A stretch of 29,421 bases of DNA, from IMG/VR virus record IMGVR_UViG_3300034061_000860, positions 1 to 29,421 of that record. The stretch is one strand, 5' to 3'. Below are positions 1-29,421 of the stretch, one piece after another. How positions within the stretch are numbered: the first letter of the stretch is position 1; the number at the start of each line of letters is the position of its first letter. The DNA comes from a virus. Made by a program: the position numbers and the translations under genes. The notes under the pieces are model-generated. The model saw only the letters and a list, made by a program, of their open reading frames with translations, was not told the origin of the DNA and did not search any database.

Positions 1-1
1 A

Positions 2-88
2 GGTATTGTGGTCTTACACGAAGTTCATGATGGTTGCTTCGATGAGATGTTTGTTTCCTTAGACTTTTTAAAGAAGAGGTATTTATGA
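2..88 (+). CDS. C-terminal end of an upstream phage protein (partial)
   Basis: Frame 2 is open from the window edge to a TGA at 86-88 and gives 28 residues with no recognisable motif, ending FLKKRYL. The TGA overlaps the ATG of the next gene (ATGA at 85-88), the same coupling used repeatedly downstream, which argues that this is the real end of a gene starting outside the window. Function cannot be told from this piece. Confidence 0.6.
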   Translation, partial: GIVVLHEVHDGCFDEMFVSLDFLKKRYL

Positions 89-396
89 ATCCAATAGCAA
101 TGCCTAAGCCTTACGGCTATTCAGATAATTGTCCAGGTGAAATAACCTTAGAAGAATACTTTCGTAGACTTCAAGTGGAAGAGCCTGAGTTAACTCCTAG
201 GGATACACAGGTAGGAGGTCAACACTATCACAAAGGAGATGGTATACAGCCTTGGGATATTATAGAAGCTTGGGAGCTTGACTTCTGGGAGGGAAATGTG
301 GTAAAATATATACTACGTTGGAAACATAAAGACGGACTGCAGGACTTACAGAAAGCGAAACACTACCTTGACTACATCATTAGTAAAAATTCTTAA
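85..396 (+). CDS. DUF3310 family protein (T7 gp1.7 C-terminal-like)
   Basis: 103 aa. The C-terminal two thirds (about residues 40-100) carry the DUF3310 signature: GGQHY near 44-48, IQPWDIIEAW at 54-63, a GNVVKYILRW stretch at 70-79 and a DLQKAKHYL helix near 87-95. The family is common in phages and is named after T7 gp1.7, a nucleotide-kinase-related protein. A role in nucleotide metabolism would suit the ribonucleotide reductase downstream, but enzyme activity is not shown by the sequence. The N-terminal 35 residues are an acidic extension of unknown role. An AGAGG box lies just upstream, and the start overlaps the previous stop codon. Confidence 0.85.
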   Translation: MNPIAMPKPYGYSDNCPGEITLEEYFRRLQVEEPELTPRDTQVGGQHYHKGDGIQPWDIIEAWELDFWEGNVVKYILRWKHKDGLQDLQKAKHYLDYIISKNS

Positions 397-430
397 CGAA
401 TCACATAAATTTTTAGAGGAGCAGAAACCA

Positions 431-721
431 ATGAAGACAGTAAATTTTAATAAGTTTTTTCCAAAGGACAATGCATTTGTAACAGTCGATGGTAGCTTTA
501 CAGATAAAGAAGACTGGCAAATTAACTTAACTGTTCAATCAGATACAAAGAACGCAGTGAGCTGGTGGTGCTGTGACTGGAATTACAAAGAAAGTGTAGA
601 ACAGTTAAAAGCTTTTCAAGACGGTGCTCAGAAAGCTATAGACTTTATAACAGCTTGTGCTACTCAACCAGCCAAGGCAGCTAAAGCTAACGCTACTAAA
701 CGTGCTGCTAAGAAAAAGTAA
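431..721 (+). CDS. Hypothetical phage protein with Ala/Lys-rich tail
   Basis: 96 aa from the ATG at 431. The frame is open further upstream to an ATG at 368, but 431 is preferred because AGGAG lies at 417-421 with 9-nt spacing, whereas 368 sits inside DUF3310 with no good ribosome site. Residues 1-75 look like a small folded domain rich in aromatic residues (VSWWCCDW at about 43-50) with predicted strands and a helix. The last 20 residues are a low-complexity AKAAKAN/KRAAKKK tail, a form typical of nucleic-acid-contacting extensions. No family recognised. Confidence 0.75.
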   Translation: MKTVNFNKFFPKDNAFVTVDGSFTDKEDWQINLTVQSDTKNAVSWWCCDWNYKESVEQLKAFQDGAQKAIDFITACATQPAKAAKANATKRAAKKK

Positions 722-898
722 ATGAACCGTACTCTTACGCTGCCAGAGTTAAAAGAACGGTTGAAGAGTTTAGACGAAGTAATGCTTCTGGAACTACTCG
801 ACATAGCTTCAGAAGATTTAGTAGAAACTTTTAGCGATACGATAGAGAACAATTATAACCGACTTCTAAAAGAAGTAGATTGGGAAGAAACTGAATGA
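722..898 (+). CDS. Small acidic hypothetical protein
   Basis: 58 aa, directly after the previous stop (TAAATG) and ending in an ATGA overlap with the next gene, so it is packed as a coupled operon member. It starts MNRTLTLPELKERLKSL and is leucine- and glutamate-rich, predicted helical, with an internal EVMLLELLDIASEDLVE stretch. This N-terminus resembles small phage proteins placed near nucleotide-metabolism genes, but no function can be assigned. Confidence 0.7.
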   Translation: MNRTLTLPELKERLKSLDEVMLLELLDIASEDLVETFSDTIENNYNRLLKEVDWEETE

Positions 899-1881
899 TA
901 CCTAAAGATAAACAAATTAACTTCTATGCGATACGAGATCAAACAACTGCTAATCCTGCTTATCATTATGGTATGGATTTGATAAAGCAAGGTGACTGGG
1001 AGTATGGTTTTTATCTGCATGAGTTACGTTCGTTACCTGATCTTAGGTATCCTCAAGGAGTCAAGACTGATTTTGTTAAAACACCTGTCTGGATTCCTGG
1101 GATGAACTGCAAAGGAAAGAATGCTATTGTTTGGTCTGAAGCAGGATGGGGGGACATGCTGCAGTTTAGTCGCTTTATTCCTCTGCTAAAAGATGCAGGG
1201 ATTAAAACTGTAAAGTTATTATTTCCAGATTCAATGACTAGAATACTTAAAAGGTTGCCTAATCACGATGGTCTTTTTCTACCTCAGGAGTCTTTTCCTG
1301 GAGCAGTAAAAATTAAAGCGATGTCGCTGCTTTATTTCTTAATAGAGAATAGAGTTATTCCTGCTAAGCCTGTTGAAAAAATGTACGGCAGTGAAGGTAT
1401 CTTTCGTAATCCAGAGATTGTAAAACCTAAGAGAGAGAAACCACTGCTAGGTTACTGCTACACTACATTTAACAATAGCTGGAACATGAAGATGAAGCAG
1501 ATGCCTAAGGAACTGATGGATAATTTTATTAAGCAGCATCCTGAAGTTGACTGGGTATCGTTGCAGCAAAACGATGGCTTTATTACTTCAGATAAATGGA
1601 GCGATACTGCTGATCAGATTCAAACACTAGATGGAGTAATCTCTGTGGACTCAGCGGTAGCTCACTGTGCAGGATCTGTTGGAGTACCTGTAGCAAATCT
1701 TATTGGTCAAGAAAGACTAGCATGCTGGAGATGGTATCCTAAAGGTGAGAAAACCCACTGGTACGATAGTATGAAGACTGTTTGGTTTGACACATGGACA
1801 GAAGGGTTGGAAGAAGCATTAAAGCATTTTACAGTTACTAAGAAAAAGAAACAAAGTAAAACAAAGAAAGAGGTAGCATGA
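895..1881 (+). CDS. GT-B-type glycosyltransferase-like protein (heptosyltransferase / TPR-glycosyltransferase relative)
   Basis: 328 aa. Two motifs of the GT-B family that joins heptosyltransferases (GT9) and TPR-linked glycosyltransferases are visible: SEAGWGDMLQFSRF at residues 81-94 (family form EQGlGDtlQF-R) and VDSAVAHCAGSVGVPV at 251-266 (family form DTavaHLAGalG-PV), followed by a W-RWYP...HWY segment at 278-290. The N-terminal 65 residues may be a short TPR-like remnant. The C-terminus is a lysine tail (about 315-326). In phages such enzymes may modify phage DNA bases, virion protein or host surface glycans; the sequence does not say which. Its place between DUF3310 and ribonucleotide reductase makes a DNA-modification role worth considering. 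ATGA overlaps on both sides suggest translational coupling. Confidence 0.75.
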   Translation: MIPKDKQINFYAIRDQTTANPAYHYGMDLIKQGDWEYGFYLHELRSLPDLRYPQGVKTDFVKTPVWIPGMNCKGKNAIVWSEAGWGDMLQFSRFIPLLKDAGIKTVKLLFPDSMTRILKRLPNHDGLFLPQESFPGAVKIKAMSLLYFLIENRVIPAKPVEKMYGSEGIFRNPEIVKPKREKPLLGYCYTTFNNSWNMKMKQMPKELMDNFIKQHPEVDWVSLQQNDGFITSDKWSDTADQIQTLDGVISVDSAVAHCAGSVGVPVANLIGQERLACWRWYPKGEKTHWYDSMKTVWFDTWTEGLEEALKHFTVTKKKKQSKTKKEVA

Positions 1882-3785
1882 CAGAATTTAATACACCGTT
1901 TAGTACCGTAGGATATATCACATACAAAAGGACATACGCTCGTCGATTGAACGAAACAGATCCTGCTAGTCCTACAGAAGAGTTTGAAGACACAGTTAAT
2001 CGTGTCGTAGCAGCGTCTAATACCCAGCTTAACTGTGGGTTTACAGAAGCTGAGCAGAAACGCTTACAGAAATACTTGATGGAACTGAAGGGTACTGTAG
2101 CAGGTCGCTTCTTATGGCAGCTCGGCACTGACACAGTAGGTCGTCTAGGTCTAGCCAGTCTACAGAACTGTGCATTCACTGTGGTAGATCAGCCAGTACG
2201 TCCTTTCACCTGGGCTATGGATCTATTGATGCTTGGATCAGGAGTGGGCTACAACATTCAGCGTGAGCATGTTGCTAAGCTTCCTCCAGTTAATGTTAAC
2301 TTCTCTGCTCCTACTCGTGTAGATAGCAGTGATGCTGATTTTATCGTACCTGATTCTCGTGAAGGATGGGTTAAGCTCCTAGGTAAAACACTGAAGGCAG
2401 CCTTCTTATCTAATACTGCTACGACCTTTACTTATTCAACGAAACTAGTACGTGGTAAGGGTTCTCCTATCAAAGGCTTTGGAGGCACTGCTTCAGGTGC
2501 TGAGGATTTATGTTGGGGTATTGCTAAGATTAGTGAGATCTTAGAGAAGAGAGTAGGTAGACCAGTACGTTCTATCGACTGCCTCGACATCATGAATATT
2601 ATCGGTGCAGTAGTAGTCGCTGGTAATGTAAGACGTTCTGCTCAGATTGCTATTGGTGATCCTGATGACGTTGAATACTTGCTGGCTAAACGGTGGGACA
2701 TGGGTAACATTCCTTCGTGGAGAGCTATGTCTAATAATAGCGTAGTATGTAACGACTTCAAAGATCTACATGAGTATTTCTGGGATGGGTACGAAGGCAA
2801 GGGCGAGCCTTATGGTTTAATTAACCTAAAGCTCAGTAGAAAGATTGGAAGACTGGGAGAGACTCAGTATCCTGACCCTAAGGTTATGGGTTACAATCCT
2901 TGTGCTGAGCAGTCCCTAGCTCCGTATGAGACTTGCTGTTTAGCTGAGGTCTATCTATCTAACGTGTCATCTAAGGAAGAGTTTGTTGACATCTGTAAGC
3001 TACTATACCGCATCAATAAGCATAGTCTTGCACTGCCCTGCCATCTCGAAGAGACTGCAGATATTGTGCATAGTAATATGAGGATGGGTATTGGTGTGAC
3101 AGGTGTGCTACAGGCAACAGAAGAGCAGCGTAGTTGGTTGTCTGATGCTTATGAAGAGCTACGAGCTTTCGATAAGGAGTACAGTGCTAAGCATGGCTTT
3201 CCTGAGTCAGTAAAACTTACCACTGTTAAACCTTCAGGTACTCTGTCGTTACTACCAGGTGTAACTTCTGGTTGTCATCCTGCATATTCTAAGTACATGA
3301 TTCGTAGGATTCGTATCTCAGCAGACCACTCACTAGTACAAGTCTGTCGTGATCATGGTTATCCTGTGGAGTATCAGCGTAACTTCGATGGCTCAGCGGA
3401 TCATAGCACCATGGTAGTTAGCTTCCCATTCTGTTATCCAGAGGGAACAAAGCTGGCTGCTGAGATGACTGCTATTGATCAGTTAGAAGTTGTGAAATGG
3501 TTGCAAACTACTTGGTCAGACAATAGTGTTTCCTGTACAGTGTATTATCGTAAGGAAGAACTACCTGAGATTAAGAAGTACCTTGCTAAGAACTACAAGC
3601 ACAATCATAAGTCCTTGTCTTTCTTGCTACACAATGAACATGGTTTCCATCAAGCACCATTGGAGGAGATTACTAAAGAGCAGTATGATGAGCTAGTCGC
3701 TAAGACTCGTTTGATTACTAAGATTGATGAAGCAACCTTTGACGGAGGGGACGAGTGTGCCAGTGGTGCATGTCCAGTTAAATGA
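1878..3785 (+). CDS. nrdJ: Adenosylcobalamin-dependent (class II) ribonucleoside-triphosphate reductase, monomeric type
   Basis: 635 aa. It reduces ribonucleotides to deoxyribonucleotides for phage DNA synthesis using a cobalamin-derived radical. It aligns by eye with the monomeric Lactobacillus leichmannii enzyme: YITYKRTYARRL near the start, SLQNC at 94-98, FGGTASG at 201-207, AGNVRRSA at 248-255, NPCAEQSLAPYETC at 340-353, TVKPSGT at 449-455 and the C-terminal CASGACPVK. Expected residues are all present: first redox Cys C98, radical Cys C342, general base E344, second redox Cys C353 (11 residues after C342, as in the bacterial enzyme) and the shuttle pair C627/C632 (spacing 5, as in the bacterial enzyme). 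It is about 100 residues shorter than the bacterial protein, part of this between C98 and C342, where the regulatory insertion lies, so allosteric control may be reduced. No separate reductase partner gene is visible. Confidence 0.95.
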   Translation: MTEFNTPFSTVGYITYKRTYARRLNETDPASPTEEFEDTVNRVVAASNTQLNCGFTEAEQKRLQKYLMELKGTVAGRFLWQLGTDTVGRLGLASLQNCAFTVVDQPVRPFTWAMDLLMLGSGVGYNIQREHVAKLPPVNVNFSAPTRVDSSDADFIVPDSREGWVKLLGKTLKAAFLSNTATTFTYSTKLVRGKGSPIKGFGGTASGAEDLCWGIAKISEILEKRVGRPVRSIDCLDIMNIIGAVVVAGNVRRSAQIAIGDPDDVEYLLAKRWDMGNIPSWRAMSNNSVVCNDFKDLHEYFWDGYEGKGEPYGLINLKLSRKIGRLGETQYPDPKVMGYNPCAEQSLAPYETCCLAEVYLSNVSSKEEFVDICKLLYRINKHSLALPCHLEETADIVHSNMRMGIGVTGVLQATEEQRSWLSDAYEELRAFDKEYSAKHGFPESVKLTTVKPSGTLSLLPGVTSGCHPAYSKYMIRRIRISADHSLVQVCRDHGYPVEYQRNFDGSADHSTMVVSFPFCYPEGTKLAAEMTAIDQLEVVKWLQTTWSDNSVSCTVYYRKEELPEIKKYLAKNYKHNHKSLSFLLHNEHGFHQAPLEEITKEQYDELVAKTRLITKIDEATFDGGDECASGACPVK

Positions 3786-3943
3786 AGATTGAACTGCTAT
3801 GCTTAACTGAAAATGAGGATGGGTCTGCTGATATGGAAGTAGAGTTAGACGAAGAAGCTAAGATTCTTCTCATTCAGGCGGGCTTAGAAACCCTGATCAC
3901 CAGAGCAATTGATAAATACAAGGAAGAATTAAATGAGTCTTGA
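3782..3943 (+). CDS. Small acidic hypothetical phage protein
   Basis: 53 aa, starting by ATGA overlap with the nrdJ stop. It begins MKIELLCLTENEDGSADMEV, a strand-like opening, then continues as an acidic helix (VELDEEAKILLIQAGLETL) and ends in a Lys/Glu helix. Short acidic proteins of this shape are frequent beside nucleotide-metabolism genes of aquatic podoviruses; the function is unknown. Its end overlaps the next gene by 11 nt. Confidence 0.7.
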   Translation: MKIELLCLTENEDGSADMEVELDEEAKILLIQAGLETLITRAIDKYKEELNES

Positions 3944-4061
3944 ACTATATTTTCTCACTGGATTTATGGTAGGTTTTGAATATGTCGCTGAGTATGATGA
4001 TTGTCGACATCTAATTGTAGACTTAGGAATATTCAGACTACTGTTTTCTTTTGAGCTGTAA
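3933..4061 (+). CDS. Very small hypothetical phage protein
   Basis: 42 aa, overlapping the previous gene by 11 nt. It starts MSLELYFLTGFMVGFEY and ends with a hydrophobic helix IVDLGIFRLLFSFEL. Proteins with this opening occur widely in phages and have no known role. It may be peripherally membrane-associated. It is the last gene of the plus-strand metabolic operon: the intrinsic terminator begins within about 6 nt of its stop. Confidence 0.65.
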   Translation: MSLELYFLTGFMVGFEYVAEYDDCRHLIVDLGIFRLLFSFEL

Positions 4062-14973: not shown

Positions 14974-15564
14974 TTACTCGTAAAGAATGTTAATAGAGCC
15001 AGCATCGAAGGTGTCTGTGCCGTTTACTGTAGTAATACGAACTCGGTCTAATGTGGCTGAAAGGGTTTTAGAGCCAGCAGTGCTATAAAGAAAATCAGCG
15101 GCAGTACCACTTCCAGCAAAACTACCATTTGCAGTCCAAACATTACCAGTTAAATTGCACAATGTAAGCAATCCTTGTTGCACATGGGTAGAACTGCTTA
15201 CTGTTAAACCAAAACCAGTTGTATAACTTGTACCACCTGTTGATGAACCCAAATAAGTACTTACAGATATGTAGCCTGTATTTTCAATACCGCCTGAATC
15301 ACCTAATTGGATTAACCAGTTAGATGAACCATTTGTTGAAACACCGCTTAACATTACCGTTACACGCTTTACCCAGCTAGGAATACTAGTAAAGTCAATA
15401 CTTGTTCCGCTTGTGGAGGCTACGGATGTTCCGCTAGTTAAAACACCTACACCTGTAGGAGTTCCGCTAATTGTTGGGCTAGTTAAAGTAGCACTAGTTA
15501 AAGTAGGTGTTGTTAATGAAGCACTCGTTAGGTTGGGATTATCGCCTGATATAGTGATTGCCAT
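14974..15564 (-). CDS. Fibre-like protein, copy 1 of a duplicated C-terminal module
   Basis: 196 aa. An N-terminal Thr/Ser repeat region (TSASLTTPTLTSATLTSPTI) with a short strand-turn period, as in triple-stranded beta fibres, is followed by a module starting at about residue 40: VLTSGTSVASTSGTSIDFTS, IPSWVKRVTVM and ending TFDAGSINILYE. The same module occurs in the gene at 15734-16378, and nucleotide identity is obvious at the 3' ends. Likely a receptor-facing head or tail fibre tip; the virion location is not shown. Confidence 0.7.
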   Translation of the reverse strand: MAITISGDNPNLTSASLTTPTLTSATLTSPTISGTPTGVGVLTSGTSVASTSGTSIDFTSIPSWVKRVTVMLSGVSTNGSSNWLIQLGDSGGIENTGYISVSTYLGSSTGGTSYTTGFGLTVSSSTHVQQGLLTLCNLTGNVWTANGSFAGSGTAADFLYSTAGSKTLSATLDRVRITTVNGTDTFDAGSINILYE

Positions 15565-20688: not shown

Positions 20689-22170
20689 TTAGAAGAATGT
20701 GATAACCATAACGCTTCCATCACCCCCGTTACCACCAGCACCTGAGTTGTAAGCATTTTGACAAGCACCACCCCCACCACCACCAGCAGAGTTTCCACCG
20801 TTTCCACCGTTACCACCATTAGCTAATAATTGAGATGCACCACCACCACCACCATTGCCACCTATGTAGTAATTAGTTGAATTAGAGCCAGCAACTCCGT
20901 TTGGAGAACCTGTTGTGCCAGCAGCACCACCACCGCCAGTTGTTGTTGATGTAGTTGATTTAACCCCTGCACCACCCTCTCCACCTGCTGCCCCAGCTAA
21001 TGCTACTGGTGTTGCTGCAACTATGCCGCCACCTGTTGCACCGCCACCGCCTGATTTGCCGCCTTTATTTCCAGCAGAACCAGCAGACCCCCTTATAGCA
21101 GTTTCGCCACTTCCTGTTAAAACAGTTGTTCCTGTTCCAACAATAGAAACATAATTAACAGAATTGCTTGTACCACTACCACCACCAGTTGTTCCTGTAC
21201 GACCACCAATCCCACCAGTTCCCCCTCTAGCTAAGCACCAAGAACCAAAAGAAGAAGTGCCGCCAGCATTTCCGCTATTGCCATTTCCAGCTACTGTTAC
21301 AGATGTACCACCTGTGCCACCTAGACCCGTTATTACTGTTTCTGTACTTCCCAATAACACGGCAGGAATCATTAACTCAGACCAGCCACCTGTAAAGCCA
21401 CCACCACCGCCTGATATAGCAGCATTTGTTGGTGAGGCTATTTGTTTATAGCCCGAACCACCACCACCACCAGCACCTTGACAAACAATGTAAACCAACT
21501 TAGCATCTGCTGGTTTAGTCCATGTAGATGTTCCAGCAGTTGTAAATTCTTGGATGTTGGCAGTAGAGATACCACCACCTGCTATTGTTGTCCAAGTAGT
21601 ATCATAATCAGTATTACTTACTTTTGATAGTACTTGACCTGTAGTTCCTCCAGCAGCAATGCCAACACCAGCATCACCTTTGTCACCTCTAACACCATTT
21701 GAACCGTTTGAACCACGCTCTCCAACAACTGTTTTAGTTGTTTTAATTTGTGATCCATCGGATAAAGTTAATAGAAGTGTATCATCAATAGCTATTTCAG
21801 CATCAACAATCTTAGGAGCTTCTTCTCCGTCTTCCCCGTCTTTACCGTTTATACCATCTTTACCATCTCTACCATCTTTACCATCTATTCCAGGCTTGCC
21901 ATCTGTACCATCTTTACCGTTATCTCCTTTATCGCCTTTAGCCCCTTTTAAAGTAGGGTCTGTTGTAAGTGCAATAAATCTATTCTCTAATTTCTTTTCT
22001 ACTTCTTTAACAGCATCAACAATTAAATTACTATTTTCTTCTAAAGTTTTTTCCTGTATTTGTTTGTTTTCAATAAGAGTTTGCTCAATCATTGCAAGAG
22101 CAGCTTGTTGCTCCTCTAATGAAAGAGTAGTATCTTCTAGTTGGAGGATAAAATCTTTAATGTCTGTCAT
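20689..22170 (-). CDS. Collagen-like, glycine-rich receptor-binding fibre (adhesin)
   Basis: 493 aa in clear modules. Residues 1-70 are a coiled coil (LEEQQAALAMIEQTLIENKQ). Residues 76-115 hold 13 collagen-type Gly-X-Y triplets rich in K/D pairs; 116-149 is a small beta module; 150-168 is a second Gly-X-Y run. Residues about 173-200 are a fibre-knob motif (GGTTGQVLSKVSNTDYDTTW). Residues 207-493 match the glycine-rich domain type (opens TWTKPADAKLVYIVCQGAG, ends GSVMVITFF), with many GGGG and GGxGG runs. Such domains can pack as polyglycine-II helices, as in phage S16 gp38-type adhesins. A role as main host-range determinant is likely but inferred. It sits between portal and small head genes, an unusual place. 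Confidence 0.82.
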   Translation of the reverse strand: MTDIKDFILQLEDTTLSLEEQQAALAMIEQTLIENKQIQEKTLEENSNLIVDAVKEVEKKLENRFIALTTDPTLKGAKGDKGDNGKDGTDGKPGIDGKDGRDGKDGINGKDGEDGEEAPKIVDAEIAIDDTLLLTLSDGSQIKTTKTVVGERGSNGSNGVRGDKGDAGVGIAAGGTTGQVLSKVSNTDYDTTWTTIAGGGISTANIQEFTTAGTSTWTKPADAKLVYIVCQGAGGGGGSGYKQIASPTNAAISGGGGGFTGGWSELMIPAVLLGSTETVITGLGGTGGTSVTVAGNGNSGNAGGTSSFGSWCLARGGTGGIGGRTGTTGGGSGTSNSVNYVSIVGTGTTVLTGSGETAIRGSAGSAGNKGGKSGGGGATGGGIVAATPVALAGAAGGEGGAGVKSTTSTTTGGGGAAGTTGSPNGVAGSNSTNYYIGGNGGGGGASQLLANGGNGGNGGNSAGGGGGGACQNAYNSGAGGNGGDGSVMVITFF

Positions 22171-26635: not shown

Positions 26636-27053
26636 CTTCGTCTACCATGTCGATGGTCTCTACAGCTTCCACCTTAGTCTCACCCAAGCCAGTGATGTTA
26701 ATTGTTACAGCATTCCGCTGACCCTTAGCATCCTTTTCAAAGAGTGAGACAGGTAGAAGTCTGTCCATGCACATCTTTAGACATGCTACCTGATCTTTGT
26801 CTTCATCGTCTAAGGCTTTTCTTAAGACAGTGTCTATGACCTTAGTTCCAGTAGTACTCAGGAGTCTAGCTTTAAATTCTTGTATTCTTCCTGTGTCACC
26901 CTGGGGTCTACCTACCTTACCTCTTTTACGCTTAGCTTCTACGACAGCCTTAGGAGGACGACCCCTACGTGGTATAGACACAACAACTGAATTATCTTCT
27001 TTATCTTCTAAGTTCACTTCTAAGCCTTTTCCTACGTGAGTAGAGACTAACAT
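26625..27053 (-). CDS. terS: Terminase small subunit-like DNA-packaging protein (TerS)
   Basis: 142 aa, first gene of the leftward late operon. Residues 25-55 contain AT-hook-like basic motifs (SIPRRGRPPK and KVGRPQGD) that could grip AT-rich DNA. Residues 57-105 form a helical core (IQEFKARLLSTTGTKVIDTV, then MCMDRLLPVS) of the type seen in small terminase-like proteins preceding terL. The C-terminus is acidic. The ribosome site is weak, and a 9-bp hairpin ends close upstream, so translation may be controlled. The family call rests on position and core pattern. Confidence 0.75.
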   Translation of the reverse strand: MLVSTHVGKGLEVNLEDKEDNSVVVSIPRRGRPPKAVVEAKRKRGKVGRPQGDTGRIQEFKARLLSTTGTKVIDTVLRKALDDEDKDQVACLKMCMDRLLPVSLFEKDAKGQRNAVTINITGLGETKVEAVETIDMVDEDES

Positions 27054-27067
27054 TTAAAATTACTTCT

Positions 27068-27088
27068 CTTCTAAGTTATACTTAGAAG
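27068..27088 (-). promoter_or_regulatory. Perfect 9-bp hairpin in the terS leader
   Basis: CTTCTAAGT (27068-27076), 3-nt spacer, ACTTAGAAG (27080-27088). It lies 15-35 nt upstream of the terS ATG within the predicted leader of about 110 nt, and is followed by no T-run, so it is not an intrinsic terminator. It may shield the weak ribosome site, act as an RNase III-type processing site or bind a regulator as DNA. Confidence 0.7.
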
Positions 27089-27173
27089 TTAACTAAGTAG
27101 TTTTTATATTATTTGGTTTTTATATTGTATTTACTTAGGAACTGACTTAGCGTTTTTTCTCCTTAGTACAACT

Positions 27174-27202
27174 ATTATACCATACTTATTAGAATTTGTC
27201 AA
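27174..27202 (-). promoter_or_regulatory. Consensus sigma70 promoter with extended -10 (packaging / portal unit)
   Basis: Minus strand: perfect -35 TTGACA (27202-27197), 17-bp spacer, TGG then perfect -10 TATAAT (27179-27174). Expected start near 27167 gives a 113-nt leader to terS. Same architecture as the promoters at 20403-20431 and 13771-13799. Confidence 0.93.
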
Positions 27203-27560
27203 GTAATATTTTACTATGATGTTGACTACGTAGCACATTATGTACAATACCTGTCTATTTTGTGTACTATAGCTAACACTTCTATGCGGGTCTACCCAGT
27301 AAACTAGCACGTATTCCGCAACTGTAGCTAACTAGCCTTTATTAATCACTAACGTAGCTCATCTTCTACTATCTTCTTAGATTCCTAAGCTATTGATTTA
27401 TATATAATACCTTATCTGTAGTCTTCTGTCGTTAACTTCCTTAATATGCTTAATTATTAGGCACTTCTTAGTTTAACTTTTTAGGTGTTTTAGAGGGTTA
27501 TAACGTACTAGATTGTTGCGAGAGCCCCCTCCCCCATGCATAAAAATTCTACAGTGTCAA

Positions 27561-27583
27561 TAGGGGTAAACACCTATAGACAA
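27561..27583 (+). repeat. Early control repeat, copy A
   Basis: TAGGGGTAAACACC followed by TATAGACAA, shared with the copies at 27665 and 29009. It contains the inverted pair ATAGG-N8-CCTAT. A TAGACA -35-like hexamer lies at 27577-27582, with a weak TGC-TAAGAG -10 after 17 bp, so this copy may be an operator rather than an active promoter. Confidence 0.6.
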
Positions 27584-27662
27584 ACTAGCTAGAATCTGCT
27601 AAGAGAGGGAGTCATAGTGTCACTCTATCGCTATCCAGGACTCAATAGACTAAACCTATAAT

Positions 27663-27708
27663 ACTAGGGTAAACACTTATAGACTTACCTGGTAGCTTGT
27701 GAGATACT
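27663..27708 (+). promoter_or_regulatory. Early promoter candidate, copy B (for the gene at 27740)
   Basis: ACTAGGGTAAACACTTATAG (27663-27682) overlaps the -35 TAGACT (27680-27685); 17 bp later comes TGA then -10 GATACT (27703-27708). It lies 32 bases before the ATG at 27740. Confidence 0.6.
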
Positions 27709-27739
27709 ACCACTGTAGTTAACTAATGGAGGTAATACA

Positions 27740-27985
27740 ATGAAATTTACATTCTTAAAACTAATTGATCAAAAGAAAGTAGTACCTATGGCTTTATTAC
27801 CTGAGCAAGCTAATGATAAATTTACCTGGCAGATCGATGATACCGACGTACTAGAGTATGATCCTAAGACTAAGCAATTCAGTTTAGAAGTATACGATTT
27901 TATCGATGACGATTACGAGCTAGTCAACACCTTAGGGCATGATGACGCTTACCAGGTAGCACTACAGAATAACATAGTATACTAA
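27740..27985 (+). CDS. Small acidic hypothetical early protein
   Basis: 81 aa with a strong GGAGG site at 27728-27732. It is acidic: MKFTFLKLIDQKKVVPMALL, then WQIDDTDVLEYDPKTKQFSL and a YDFIDDDYELVNTLGHDDAY segment. Predicted mixed strands and helices, net charge strongly negative, no transmembrane helix. Acidic proteins of this size are often DNA mimics or host-takeover factors in early phage regions, but no family is recognised and that role is speculation. A promoter cassette lies on each side. Confidence 0.75.
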   Translation: MKFTFLKLIDQKKVVPMALLPEQANDKFTWQIDDTDVLEYDPKTKQFSLEVYDFIDDDYELVNTLGHDDAYQVALQNNIVY

Positions 27986-28027
27986 GGGTTTATCCTAGTA
28001 GACAAATTCAGTTTACTAGGGTATTCT
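27981..28027 (+). promoter_or_regulatory. Early promoter candidate, copy C (for the gene at 28052)
   Basis: Degenerate repeat ACTAAGGGTTTATCCTAG (27981-27998), then -35 TAGACA (27999-28004), 17-bp spacer and -10 TATTCT (28022-28027). The repeat overlaps the stop codon of the preceding gene. Confidence 0.62.
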
Positions 28028-28051
28028 TAAAACACTACAGGAGGGTTTACA

Positions 28052-28177
28052 ATGGAATTAACTTTAAAAGAGCGTAACATTTTGATGGAGTTACTTTGGT
28101 TAGAATACAAGACTTCGGAAAGTATTCAACGACAGGAAGAAGCTAAACAGTTACACGATAAAATATTGGAGGGTTAA
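28052..28177 (+). CDS. Very small hypothetical early protein
   Basis: 41 aa, starting ten nt after AGGAGGG. MELTLKERNILMELLWLEYK is followed by an amphipathic charged helix (ESIQRQEEAKQLHDKILEG). It could form a short helical hairpin or dimer. No family recognised. It is bracketed by promoter cassettes, so it appears to be expressed as an independent unit. Confidence 0.65.
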   Translation: MELTLKERNILMELLWLEYKTSESIQRQEEAKQLHDKILEG

Positions 28178-28194
28178 TTAGTTTAGTAGATATA

Positions 28195-28229
28195 TCTAGG
28201 GTTTTACTTGACTGTTTCAAAACCCTAGA
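28195..28229 (+). repeat. Perfect 11-bp inverted repeat over a promoter (operator candidate)
   Basis: TCTAGGGTTTT (28195-28205), 13-nt spacer, AAAACCCTAGA (28219-28229). The spacer contains the -35 box and the right arm fills most of the promoter spacer. It is not followed by a T-run, so it is not a terminator. The arms contain the CTAGGGT element of the other early promoter copies. Confidence 0.75.
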
Positions 28230-28236
28230 GTATATT
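28208..28236 (+). promoter_or_regulatory. Early promoter candidate, copy D (for the gene at 28263)
   Basis: -35 TTGACT (28208-28213), 17-bp spacer, -10 TATATT (28231-28236), the best-matching early promoter in the window, lying inside and after the inverted repeat at 28195-28229. Confidence 0.75.
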
Positions 28237-28262
28237 TATTAATAACGATGGAGGGTTAGGGT

Positions 28263-28400
28263 ATGTACCAATTTACAATTAATGGGAAAGACTTTAAATT
28301 TAAGACATTGAAAGAAGCAAGGTATTATGCACAATTTAATGAAGGTATGACAATTATTAAAAAGGTAAACAAAAATGATCAAGCTAAGCAAAACAAGTAA
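28263..28400 (+). CDS. Very small basic hypothetical early protein
   Basis: 45 aa after a GGAGGG site. MYQFTINGKDFKFKTLKEAR looks like two short strands and a helix, followed by YYAQFNEGMTIIKKV and a Lys/Asn/Gln tail. The INGKDFKFKTLKEAR pattern (strand, turn, strand, KEA helix) is frequent in tiny phage proteins. Function unknown. It overlaps the next gene by 26 nt, which suggests coupled translation. Confidence 0.68.
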   Translation: MYQFTINGKDFKFKTLKEARYYAQFNEGMTIIKKVNKNDQAKQNK

Positions 28401-29016
28401 ACTAGATGGGATTATGTCATGGTCTCTTCAAGCTTTGGATACATGCCCAGGAAGTAAAGACTCACTGGGTGAGCTCGTACCAGCATGCCAAGGGTGTTAC
28501 GCTACTACAGGTAATTACAGATTCCCTAATGTGAAAGCACCTAGGGAGTTCAATAGGGAAGACTGGAAGCGTGACGACTGGATAGATGACATGGTAAAAG
28601 CTTTAGATTCTAGTAGATACTTTAGATGGTTTGATAGTGGAGATATGTACGACGTTAAATTAGCCTATAAAATTCTACAAGTAATGGAAGTAACGCCTCA
28701 TTGTAAGCATTGGCTACCTACTAGAATGCATAAGTTTGACAAGTTTAAACACGCTATAACACGCATGCAGTCATTGCCTAATGTAGTGGTACGCTTTAGC
28801 TCTGATAGTGTCACTGGAGAGCGTATAGAGGGTTTAAATACTAGTACAATATTCAGTGATAACTTACCAGTAGGTGCTACAGAATGCCAAGCTTATCAAC
28901 ATGATGGTAAATGTAATGGGTGTCGGGCATGTTACGACAAGAGCGTGAGCGTGATAGCATACAAAGCTCATGGAGTTAAGATGGCAAAGGTTATTAAGAT
29001 TATGGCACTAGGGTAA
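28375..29016 (+). CDS. GP88-like cysteine-rich phage protein
   Basis: 213 aa. It begins IKLSKTSKLDGIMSWSLQAL, then TCPGSKDS (23-30), ACQGCYA (37-43) and NYRFPNVKAPREFNRE, the N-terminal pattern of the Gene product 88 (GP88) family found in phages and mobile elements. RWFDSGDMYDVKLAYKI (84-100) and HWLPTRMHKF follow. The C-terminus has a Cys set C171, C180, C183, C186 (GKCNGCRACYD), which with C24, C38 and C41 suggests one or two metal or Fe-S sites. The GP88 call is from memory of the motif. Function is unknown. Its stop codon is inside early repeat copy E. Confidence 0.75.
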   Translation: MIKLSKTSKLDGIMSWSLQALDTCPGSKDSLGELVPACQGCYATTGNYRFPNVKAPREFNREDWKRDDWIDDMVKALDSSRYFRWFDSGDMYDVKLAYKILQVMEVTPHCKHWLPTRMHKFDKFKHAITRMQSLPNVVVRFSSDSVTGERIEGLNTSTIFSDNLPVGATECQAYQHDGKCNGCRACYDKSVSVIAYKAHGVKMAKVIKIMALG

Positions 29017-29051
29017 ACACCTATAGACAATGCAGTAATTTATGGTAGAAT
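29007..29051 (+). promoter_or_regulatory. Early promoter candidate, copy E (for the gene at 29077)
   Basis: ACTAGGGTAAACACCTATAG (29007-29026) overlaps the -35 TAGACA (29024-29029); a 16-bp spacer ending TGG leads to -10 TAGAAT (29046-29051). The core is identical to copy A over TAAACACCTATAGACAA. It overlaps the stop codon of the GP88-like gene. Confidence 0.7.
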
Positions 29052-29076
29052 GTATTTAACTTAGGAGGGTTTAATT

Positions 29077-29259
29077 ATGATGGATACTTATCAAGCAGTA
29101 GGATTAGCAGAGGGATTTATTGAAGCAGATACTGAGGAGCAAGTACTTGAAGCATGGCAGACCTTAGTAGATACTGGTATGGCGTGGCAGTTACAAGGGT
29201 GGTTTGGACGTACTGCTAGGCATTTAATTGAGGAGGGTTATATTCATGAGCGTATGTAA
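29077..29259 (+). CDS. Small conserved hypothetical phage protein
   Basis: 60 aa with AGGAGG eight bases upstream of 29077 (a second ATG follows at once). YQAVGLAEGFIEADTEEQVL, then EAWQTLVDTGMAWQLQGWFG and RTARHLIEEG, a pattern I recognise from many phage early regions (Q-VG-AEGF, AWQ-L-DTG, LQG-FGRTA). Predicted helical. Unknown function. Its end overlaps the next gene by 14 nt, and that gene's ribosome site (AGGAGG) lies inside it. Confidence 0.78.
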   Translation: MMDTYQAVGLAEGFIEADTEEQVLEAWQTLVDTGMAWQLQGWFGRTARHLIEEGYIHERM

Positions 29260-29421
29260 TCAGATTAAAGAGATTGTATTTGATGGTCGTAAGCCTAGTT
29301 ATGCCCAGGTAATGAGGGCAGTAGGTGAAGAGATTAGCCAAGGTAATACTGATATCACTGTACTTTGGGGTGAGAATTGGATAGACTTATACTTTGATCA
29401 TAGAGTTAATCAATGGTTTGG
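29246..29421 (+). CDS. Hypothetical early protein (partial, runs off the window)
   Basis: The ATG at 29246 is preceded by AGGAGG, and 58 codons remain open to the window end. The visible part starts MSVCNQIKEIVFDGRKPSYA and continues as VMRAVGEEISQG and VLWGENWIDLYFD, a mixed alpha/beta pattern. No family recognised. Confidence 0.65.
   Translation, partial: MSVCNQIKEIVFDGRKPSYAQVMRAVGEEISQGNTDITVLWGENWIDLYFDHRVNQWF

Follow-up and report, generated by a model that had tools for sequence, protein, structure and literature searches.

Phage promoters that depend on a protein bound next to RNA polymerase include those of phages lambda and T4. In lambda, CI at OR2 activates PRM and CII activates PRE, i.e. 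dimeric, phage-encoded regulators act in the −35 region of phage promoters with a weak −35, whereas at T4 middle promoters an upstream box for the phage-encoded MotA replaces the −35 and aids the weak promoters of many small transcription units. Some NarL/FixJ-type sites, e.g. those of NreC, have TAGGG...CCCTA halves. In Pseudomonas, activation of acetate genes by the LuxR-family response regulator CrbR (ErdR) requires the ACTU, an inverted repeat that spans −52 to −36 directly ahead of the RpoD promoter (PMC5715377), and in Bordetella the β-proteobacterial two-component regulator RisA serves many promoters with a GTTACA consensus (PMC11019879).

The window, i.e. the whole 29,421-base freshwater phage record analysed here (G+C 41%), carries leftward structural genes up to about 27,050 and rightward early genes from 27,740, with the ribonucleotide reductase end of its early side at 1–4,061. 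Five elements near its early genes (27561, 27663, 27981, 28195 and 29007) have as their basic architecture an imperfect palindrome, TAGGGTNNANNCCTA, that directly abuts a σ70 −35 hexamer (TAGACA or TTGACW). The nearest published architecture is that of CrbR and ACTU: the phage palindrome also lies immediately before an RpoD promoter, in the same position, and the acetate-type targets resemble genes beside some chromosomal copies described below. The letters, however, differ (TACTACCATCGTCGAAT in ACTU versus TAGGGTAAACACCTA in the phage), and on these grounds CrbR/ErdR itself was rejected; on the present evidence, the palindrome is not a member of the CrbR regulon, yet would seem to work like ACTU. 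With lambda CI and CII the locus shares a putative dimeric protein at the −35 region of promoters with a weak −35, but the operator letters are unrelated and no regulator gene was found. It resembles the MotA system in placing an upstream box before many small units, yet these promoters have a −35 and their site is a palindrome. RisA, although also a β-proteobacterial regulator of many promoters, was rejected because GTTACA does not agree with the palindrome. The TAGGG...CCCTA halves of NreC-type sites provide a lead only; neither the exact palindrome strings nor NreC-type consensus strings occur in the literature text searched.

An earlier, sequence-only reading had listed five rightward copies. 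All are present, three of them strong (27561, 27663 and 29007), one a good variant (27981) and one degenerate (28195), but the first is in fact bidirectional: its sequence, TGTCAATAGGGGTAAACACCTATAGACA, has a −35-like hexamer on either side (table 1), and this divergent form recurs in G002, G003, G021, G023 and other relatives. The proposed ratio of almost one promoter per gene also needs correction, since 27561 and 27663 stand in tandem ahead of the first gene and the genes at 28263 and 28375 have no promoter between them. With up to three mismatches, CTAGGGTAAACACCTA matched the window six times against 0.26 expected from shuffles; four of these matches fall into the region in question and the other two, at 15434 and 19270, are weak and lie among structural genes. 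A weight matrix built from relatives gave 36.0 bits at 29007, 29.9 at 27560, 27.6 at 27663 and 14.8 at 27982. It missed the copy at 28195, which has no compact palindrome but CTAGGGTTTT and AAAACCCTAG on either side of TTGACT; G021 has an equivalent promoter ahead of its orthologous gene. A further matrix match at 28255 (GTTAGGGTATG...) was rejected as a promoter because it represents the 45-aa gene's own ribosome-binding site and start, and Rfam had no match within 27000–29421.

Table 1. Promoter elements of the window, their parts, and the genes around them.
Feature	Position	Strand	Remarks
Structural-operon promoter	27202–27174	−	leftward; TTGACA-17-TATAAT, 12/12, no palindrome; internal comparison
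Copy 1	27555–27605	both (divergent)	motif scan and matrix; same form in relatives
Copy 1, palindrome	27561–27576		TAGGGGTAAACACCTA
Copy 1, leftward −35	27560–27555	−	TTGACA
Copy 1, rightward −35	27577–27582	+	TAGACA
Copy 1, rightward −10	27600–27605	+	TAAGAG, weak
Copy 2	27665–27708	+	palindrome TAGGGTAAACACTTA at 27665–27679
Copy 2, −35	27680–27685	+	TAGACT
Copy 2, −10-like	27703–27708	+	GATACT; TATACT at this place in relatives
First early gene	27740–27985	+	81-aa acidic protein, no family
Copy 3	27984–28027	+	AAGGGTTTATCCTA; overlaps stop codon of 81-aa gene
Copy 3, −35	27999–28004	+	TAGACA
Copy 3, −10	28022–28027	+	TATTCT; preceded by third half-site, CTAGGG
Early gene	28052–28177	+	41-aa protein, no family
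Copy 4, degenerate	28196–28236	+	half-sites CTAGGGTTTT at 28196–28205 and AAAACCCTAG at 28219–28228
Copy 4, −35	28208–28213	+	TTGACT, flanked by both half-sites
Copy 4, −10	28231–28236	+	TATATT
Early gene	28263–28400	+	45-aa protein, no family
Early gene	28375–29016	+	213-aa GP88 (PF17338) family protein
Copy 5, best	29009–29051	+	palindrome TAGGGTAAACACCTA at 29009–29023; overlaps end of GP88-like gene
Copy 5, −35	29024–29029	+	TAGACA
Copy 5, −10	29046–29051	+	TAGAAT
Early gene	29077–29259	+	60-aa DUF7417 (PF24192) protein

By the usual measure of σ70 (RpoD) promoters, i.e. TTGACA- and TATAAT-like hexamers 16–18 bp apart, the copies at 27981, 28195 and 29007 qualify, whereas copies 1 and 2 have weak −10 hexamers. 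Against the leftward structural promoter of the same phage, which is perfect, free of the palindrome and also conserved in relatives, the early promoters look like promoters that need help. A conserved G-rich tract (CATGGGGGAGGGGGCTCTCGCAAC; 27515–27539, − strand), likewise found in relatives, follows the leftward TTGACA of the divergent operator on its downstream side, in a place that shows no normal −10.

Searching with the GP88-like protein yielded 80 viral loci, in which TAGGGTAAACACCTATAGACA, at up to five mismatches, turns up dozens of times in equivalent positions, namely at the divergence and downstream of the GP88/DUF7227 gene (the placement of copy 5 in many relatives), so that the elements stand before the same small early genes as in the window. 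Matrix sites in the window and in five relatives lie mostly 44–56 bp upstream of the next gene and about 158 bp upstream in the case of the divergent copy; the background was 15 matches of at least 8 bits in five shuffles of 204 kb. Across 34 whole records, matches with up to two mismatches cluster in one region per record, against two in total for the reversed pattern. The sequence-only reading would have fallen had the element been missing from other early gaps; every motif-bearing relative has it, and only in the early region, and the label of early control cassettes is borne out. To judge by these sequences, we are very probably dealing with a real and conserved operator–promoter family.

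The register between palindrome and −35, the latter taken as a hexamer matching TTGACA in at least five of six positions, was determined for 318 palindromes, of which 127 are non-redundant. In 78 of these 127 the −35 follows at once (offset 0), in seven it follows after 10–11 bp, and in none does it occur at offsets of 1–9 or 12–13 bp. Examples of the displaced arrangement are TAGGGTAAATACCTA-gaagaaatatc-TTGACA-17-TATACT and AAGGGAAAACACCTA-gcaaatagttc-TTGACA-18-TATAAT; some of the displaced spacers are alike, so that the seven sites reflect fewer independent events, perhaps only a few. A shift of one helical turn, with no sites in between, points to an activator that touches RNA polymerase, and an operator abutting the −35 and centred at about −41 to −44, as expected of a class-II-type activator, is what the 78 sites at offset 0 display. 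Among these, a −10 at 16–18 bp is over-represented but recognisable in only about one-third, which agrees with the earlier observation that conservation is stricter upstream than at the −10.

At least 119 stretches of viral contigs match the pattern AGGGWWWAYMCCTATWGACA, whose carriers fall into three unrelated phage groups, across which the inner letters of the palindrome vary while both arms are kept amid differing flanks, genes and gene order. Group A, that of the window, consists of HMO-2011-like podophages, with a portal distantly HMO-2011-like and a primase at most 52% identical to that of Pelagibacter phage HTVC115P; within the group, several sister phages (G004, G005, G007, G009 and G014) have no element at offset 0 and plain TTGACA-17-TATAAT promoters. 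Group B (G015–G019, G022 and G031) is siphophage-like, with a primase 27–33% identical to those of 9NA-type and other phages. Group C (L188 and others) is presumably T5-like, its terminase being about 50% identical to those of 112–118 kb Vibrio phages. Searching the phage record collection by megablast found no close relatives of the window, and blastn with the bare element gave chance-like matches only.

Groups B and C also have features of their own. In group B, a 191-aa σ70-family protein (L226:3289–3861, + strand, with relatives in G015–G019, G022 and G031) matches regions 1.2, 2 and 3, with no match to region 4. Many group B palindromes lead into TTGACA without a recognisable −10, so that these phages may use a phage-specific −10. 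Palindromes here also form arrays on both strands, about 47–52 bp apart (L230:2992–4169, L232:13097–15164 and L223:13443–13699), in alternation with GTGTTG-N7-CAACAC-like repeats and a CGATCAGATCG box that is conserved. Group C encodes several small paralogues that match GcrA/HTH_23 weakly (L171:4303–4614, − strand; others in L130) and are absent from groups A and B.

Cellular genomes present a different picture for the full element and for the palindrome alone. In 257 Gb of bacterial and archaeal genomes the full element, palindrome plus TWGACA, is at chance level: AGGGWWWAYMCCTATWGACA occurs in 13 stretches against about 30 expected, by our own arithmetic, for a random 34-bit pattern, and the only genome match with two copies is L211, a phage contig inside a β-proteobacterial metagenome-assembled genome (MAG). 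The palindrome itself, however, is enriched. In 249 genomes of the family of this MAG, TAGGGTWWAYMCCTAT matched 22 times, including four matches on the L211 phage contig, against two for its reverse; in 121 genomes of one β-proteobacterial family, presumably Burkholderiales, WAGGGWWWAYMCCTW matched 227 times against 52 (totals summed from printed tables). Since a composition-matched control palindrome and its reverse gave 41 and 105 in the same 121 genomes, the enrichment is two- to fivefold and not overwhelming. A genus of small genomes had none (142 versus 123), so that the pattern as such does not account for the excess. Across the wider order, 31 of 38 palindromes (ten of them from the 249-genome sample) are intergenic versus 5 of 15 reversed-pattern control sites, in a test that is biased by the TAG/CTA stop triplets within the palindrome.

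The 2.0 Mb genome G335 has six sites and no reversed-control match; they lie upstream of genes that, as read from their sequences rather than from database matches, encode a dicarboxylate symporter, a citrate-type permease, CstA, a CoA-transferase-like protein and an aldehyde dehydrogenase. The cstA copy is in the phage register (palindrome, 23 bp, TAAAAT). Chromosomal copies keep no single register with the −10, with 13, 16 and 23 bp all seen, and by their sequence some sit where a repressor would bind. In L316, L335, L338, L339 and L341 all or nearly all 15 letters are kept while the flanks have diverged. Recurrent chromosomal promoters with the palindrome (these five and L295; L271, L276, L328 and L337) include one type in which TAGGGTTTATCCCTA stands about 13 bp ahead of a CAGAAT-like −10, in some cases before DUF4148-like genes, and a second that precedes genes for RDD-type membrane proteins and has TATAAT right where the palindrome ends. 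The nearness of some chromosomal sites to nicC-like genes brought BpsR into consideration; the BpsR paper gives no site. A CRISPR-type host link was rejected, as the best match, of 32 bp, lies in collagen-like repeats and not in an array; the low-complexity DNA of the window's gene for a tail-fibre-type, collagen-like Gly-X-Y protein (20689–22170, − strand) yields false short matches to bacterial genomes.

Which protein, then, would read the palindrome? A shared binding protein, as the sequence-only reading had proposed, appears well supported by the strong conservation of the palindrome, its fixed register with the −35 and its recurrence across lineages. We propose that each copy is a host-σ70 promoter with a putative site for a dimeric protein immediately before the −35 hexamer, its centre near −43 or, in some relatives, one helical turn further upstream, and that the bound protein would help RNA polymerase at promoters whose −35 is mostly a sub-optimal TAGACA, so that each small early unit would be under a class-II-type activator. 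Such a protein is most likely host-encoded, because three unrelated groups share the site without sharing a regulator gene and a similar palindrome is intergenic in β-proteobacterial chromosomes. From sequence, conservation, register, distribution and enrichment we thus infer binding, activation and host origin, and put the probability of a host-encoded dimeric activator at roughly 0.4, with host origin as the best single explanation. Against it count the lack of enrichment in the genus of small genomes, the chance-level occurrence of the full element in cellular genomes, the spread of the control counts and the several registers seen among chromosomal copies.

A regulator encoded by the phages themselves, i.e. 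the product of a small early gene of unrecognised fold exchanged between groups, is possible but unlikely. It would accord with the full element being essentially phage-specific, with the majority of early proteins having no known family, and with the sister phages, whose plain promoters look as if regulator and operator had been lost together. Yet neither the window's early genes nor the 33 early-side proteins of its near-complete relative G002 include a helix–turn–helix regulator or an RNA polymerase (PHROGs: best 25 of 57 families), and no protein family of the window's group occurs in every motif-bearing phage while being absent from the motif-less ones. Nor did all-against-all BLAST or phmmer reveal a single regulator common to all groups, a regulator family common to A and B or one linking C to the others, which makes a host regulator the economical explanation; enrichment of a similar palindrome in chromosomes also speaks against a phage-encoded protein. 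The T7/SP6-type starts which CCTATAGACA resembles, with CTATAGA superficially like T7-type promoters, could suggest a phage single-subunit RNA polymerase, but this reading is highly improbable and largely refuted by the absence of a polymerase gene on the early side of G002, the over-representation of a −10 at 17 bp and the many TTGACA sites, including displaced copies that keep TTGACA.

Rather unlikely, too, is a repressor of host or phage origin that would occlude the −35 and keep early units off or time them. The palindrome adjoins the −35, the copies at 27981 and 28195 have additional half-sites around the −35 or ahead of the −10, some chromosomal copies abut the −10, and the group B arrays have a spacing of about 48 bp, all of which would suit repression. 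A repressor does not need a fixed helical register, however, whereas the −35 occurs only at 0 and 10–11 bp; many −35 boxes are a sub-optimal TAGACA, as expected where help is needed, and the genome is of a virulent type with no integrase or repressor gene seen in its early region. The choice between activator and repressor, which the sequence-only reading had left open, therefore tips towards the activator as the more likely role of the putative protein, on the strength of the one-turn displacement and the weak −35 boxes. That the copies are only duplicates of one intergenic segment, with no binding protein, would fit the close likeness of copies 1, 2 and 5, but is improbable given a palindrome kept across phage groups with different flanks, genes and gene order, and two arms kept while inner letters vary.

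Overall, the initial interpretation is supported in part, and it did not foresee that the palindrome is shared with unrelated phages and with bacterial chromosomes, in which an undescribed, putatively regulatory palindrome is hereby flagged. Whether one and the same protein serves the phage and the chromosomal palindromes is the point that decides how far this interest extends. More speculatively, at least three unrelated groups of freshwater phages might independently have put their early genes under the same host regulator, one that probably reports carbon or energy state, in which case infection would read the metabolic state of the host via a captured host operator. If host control is right, one 15-bp site would reveal a shared dependence on one host regulator among phages of several lineages, which would offer a handle for host prediction and show virulent phages tying early gene expression to host physiology.
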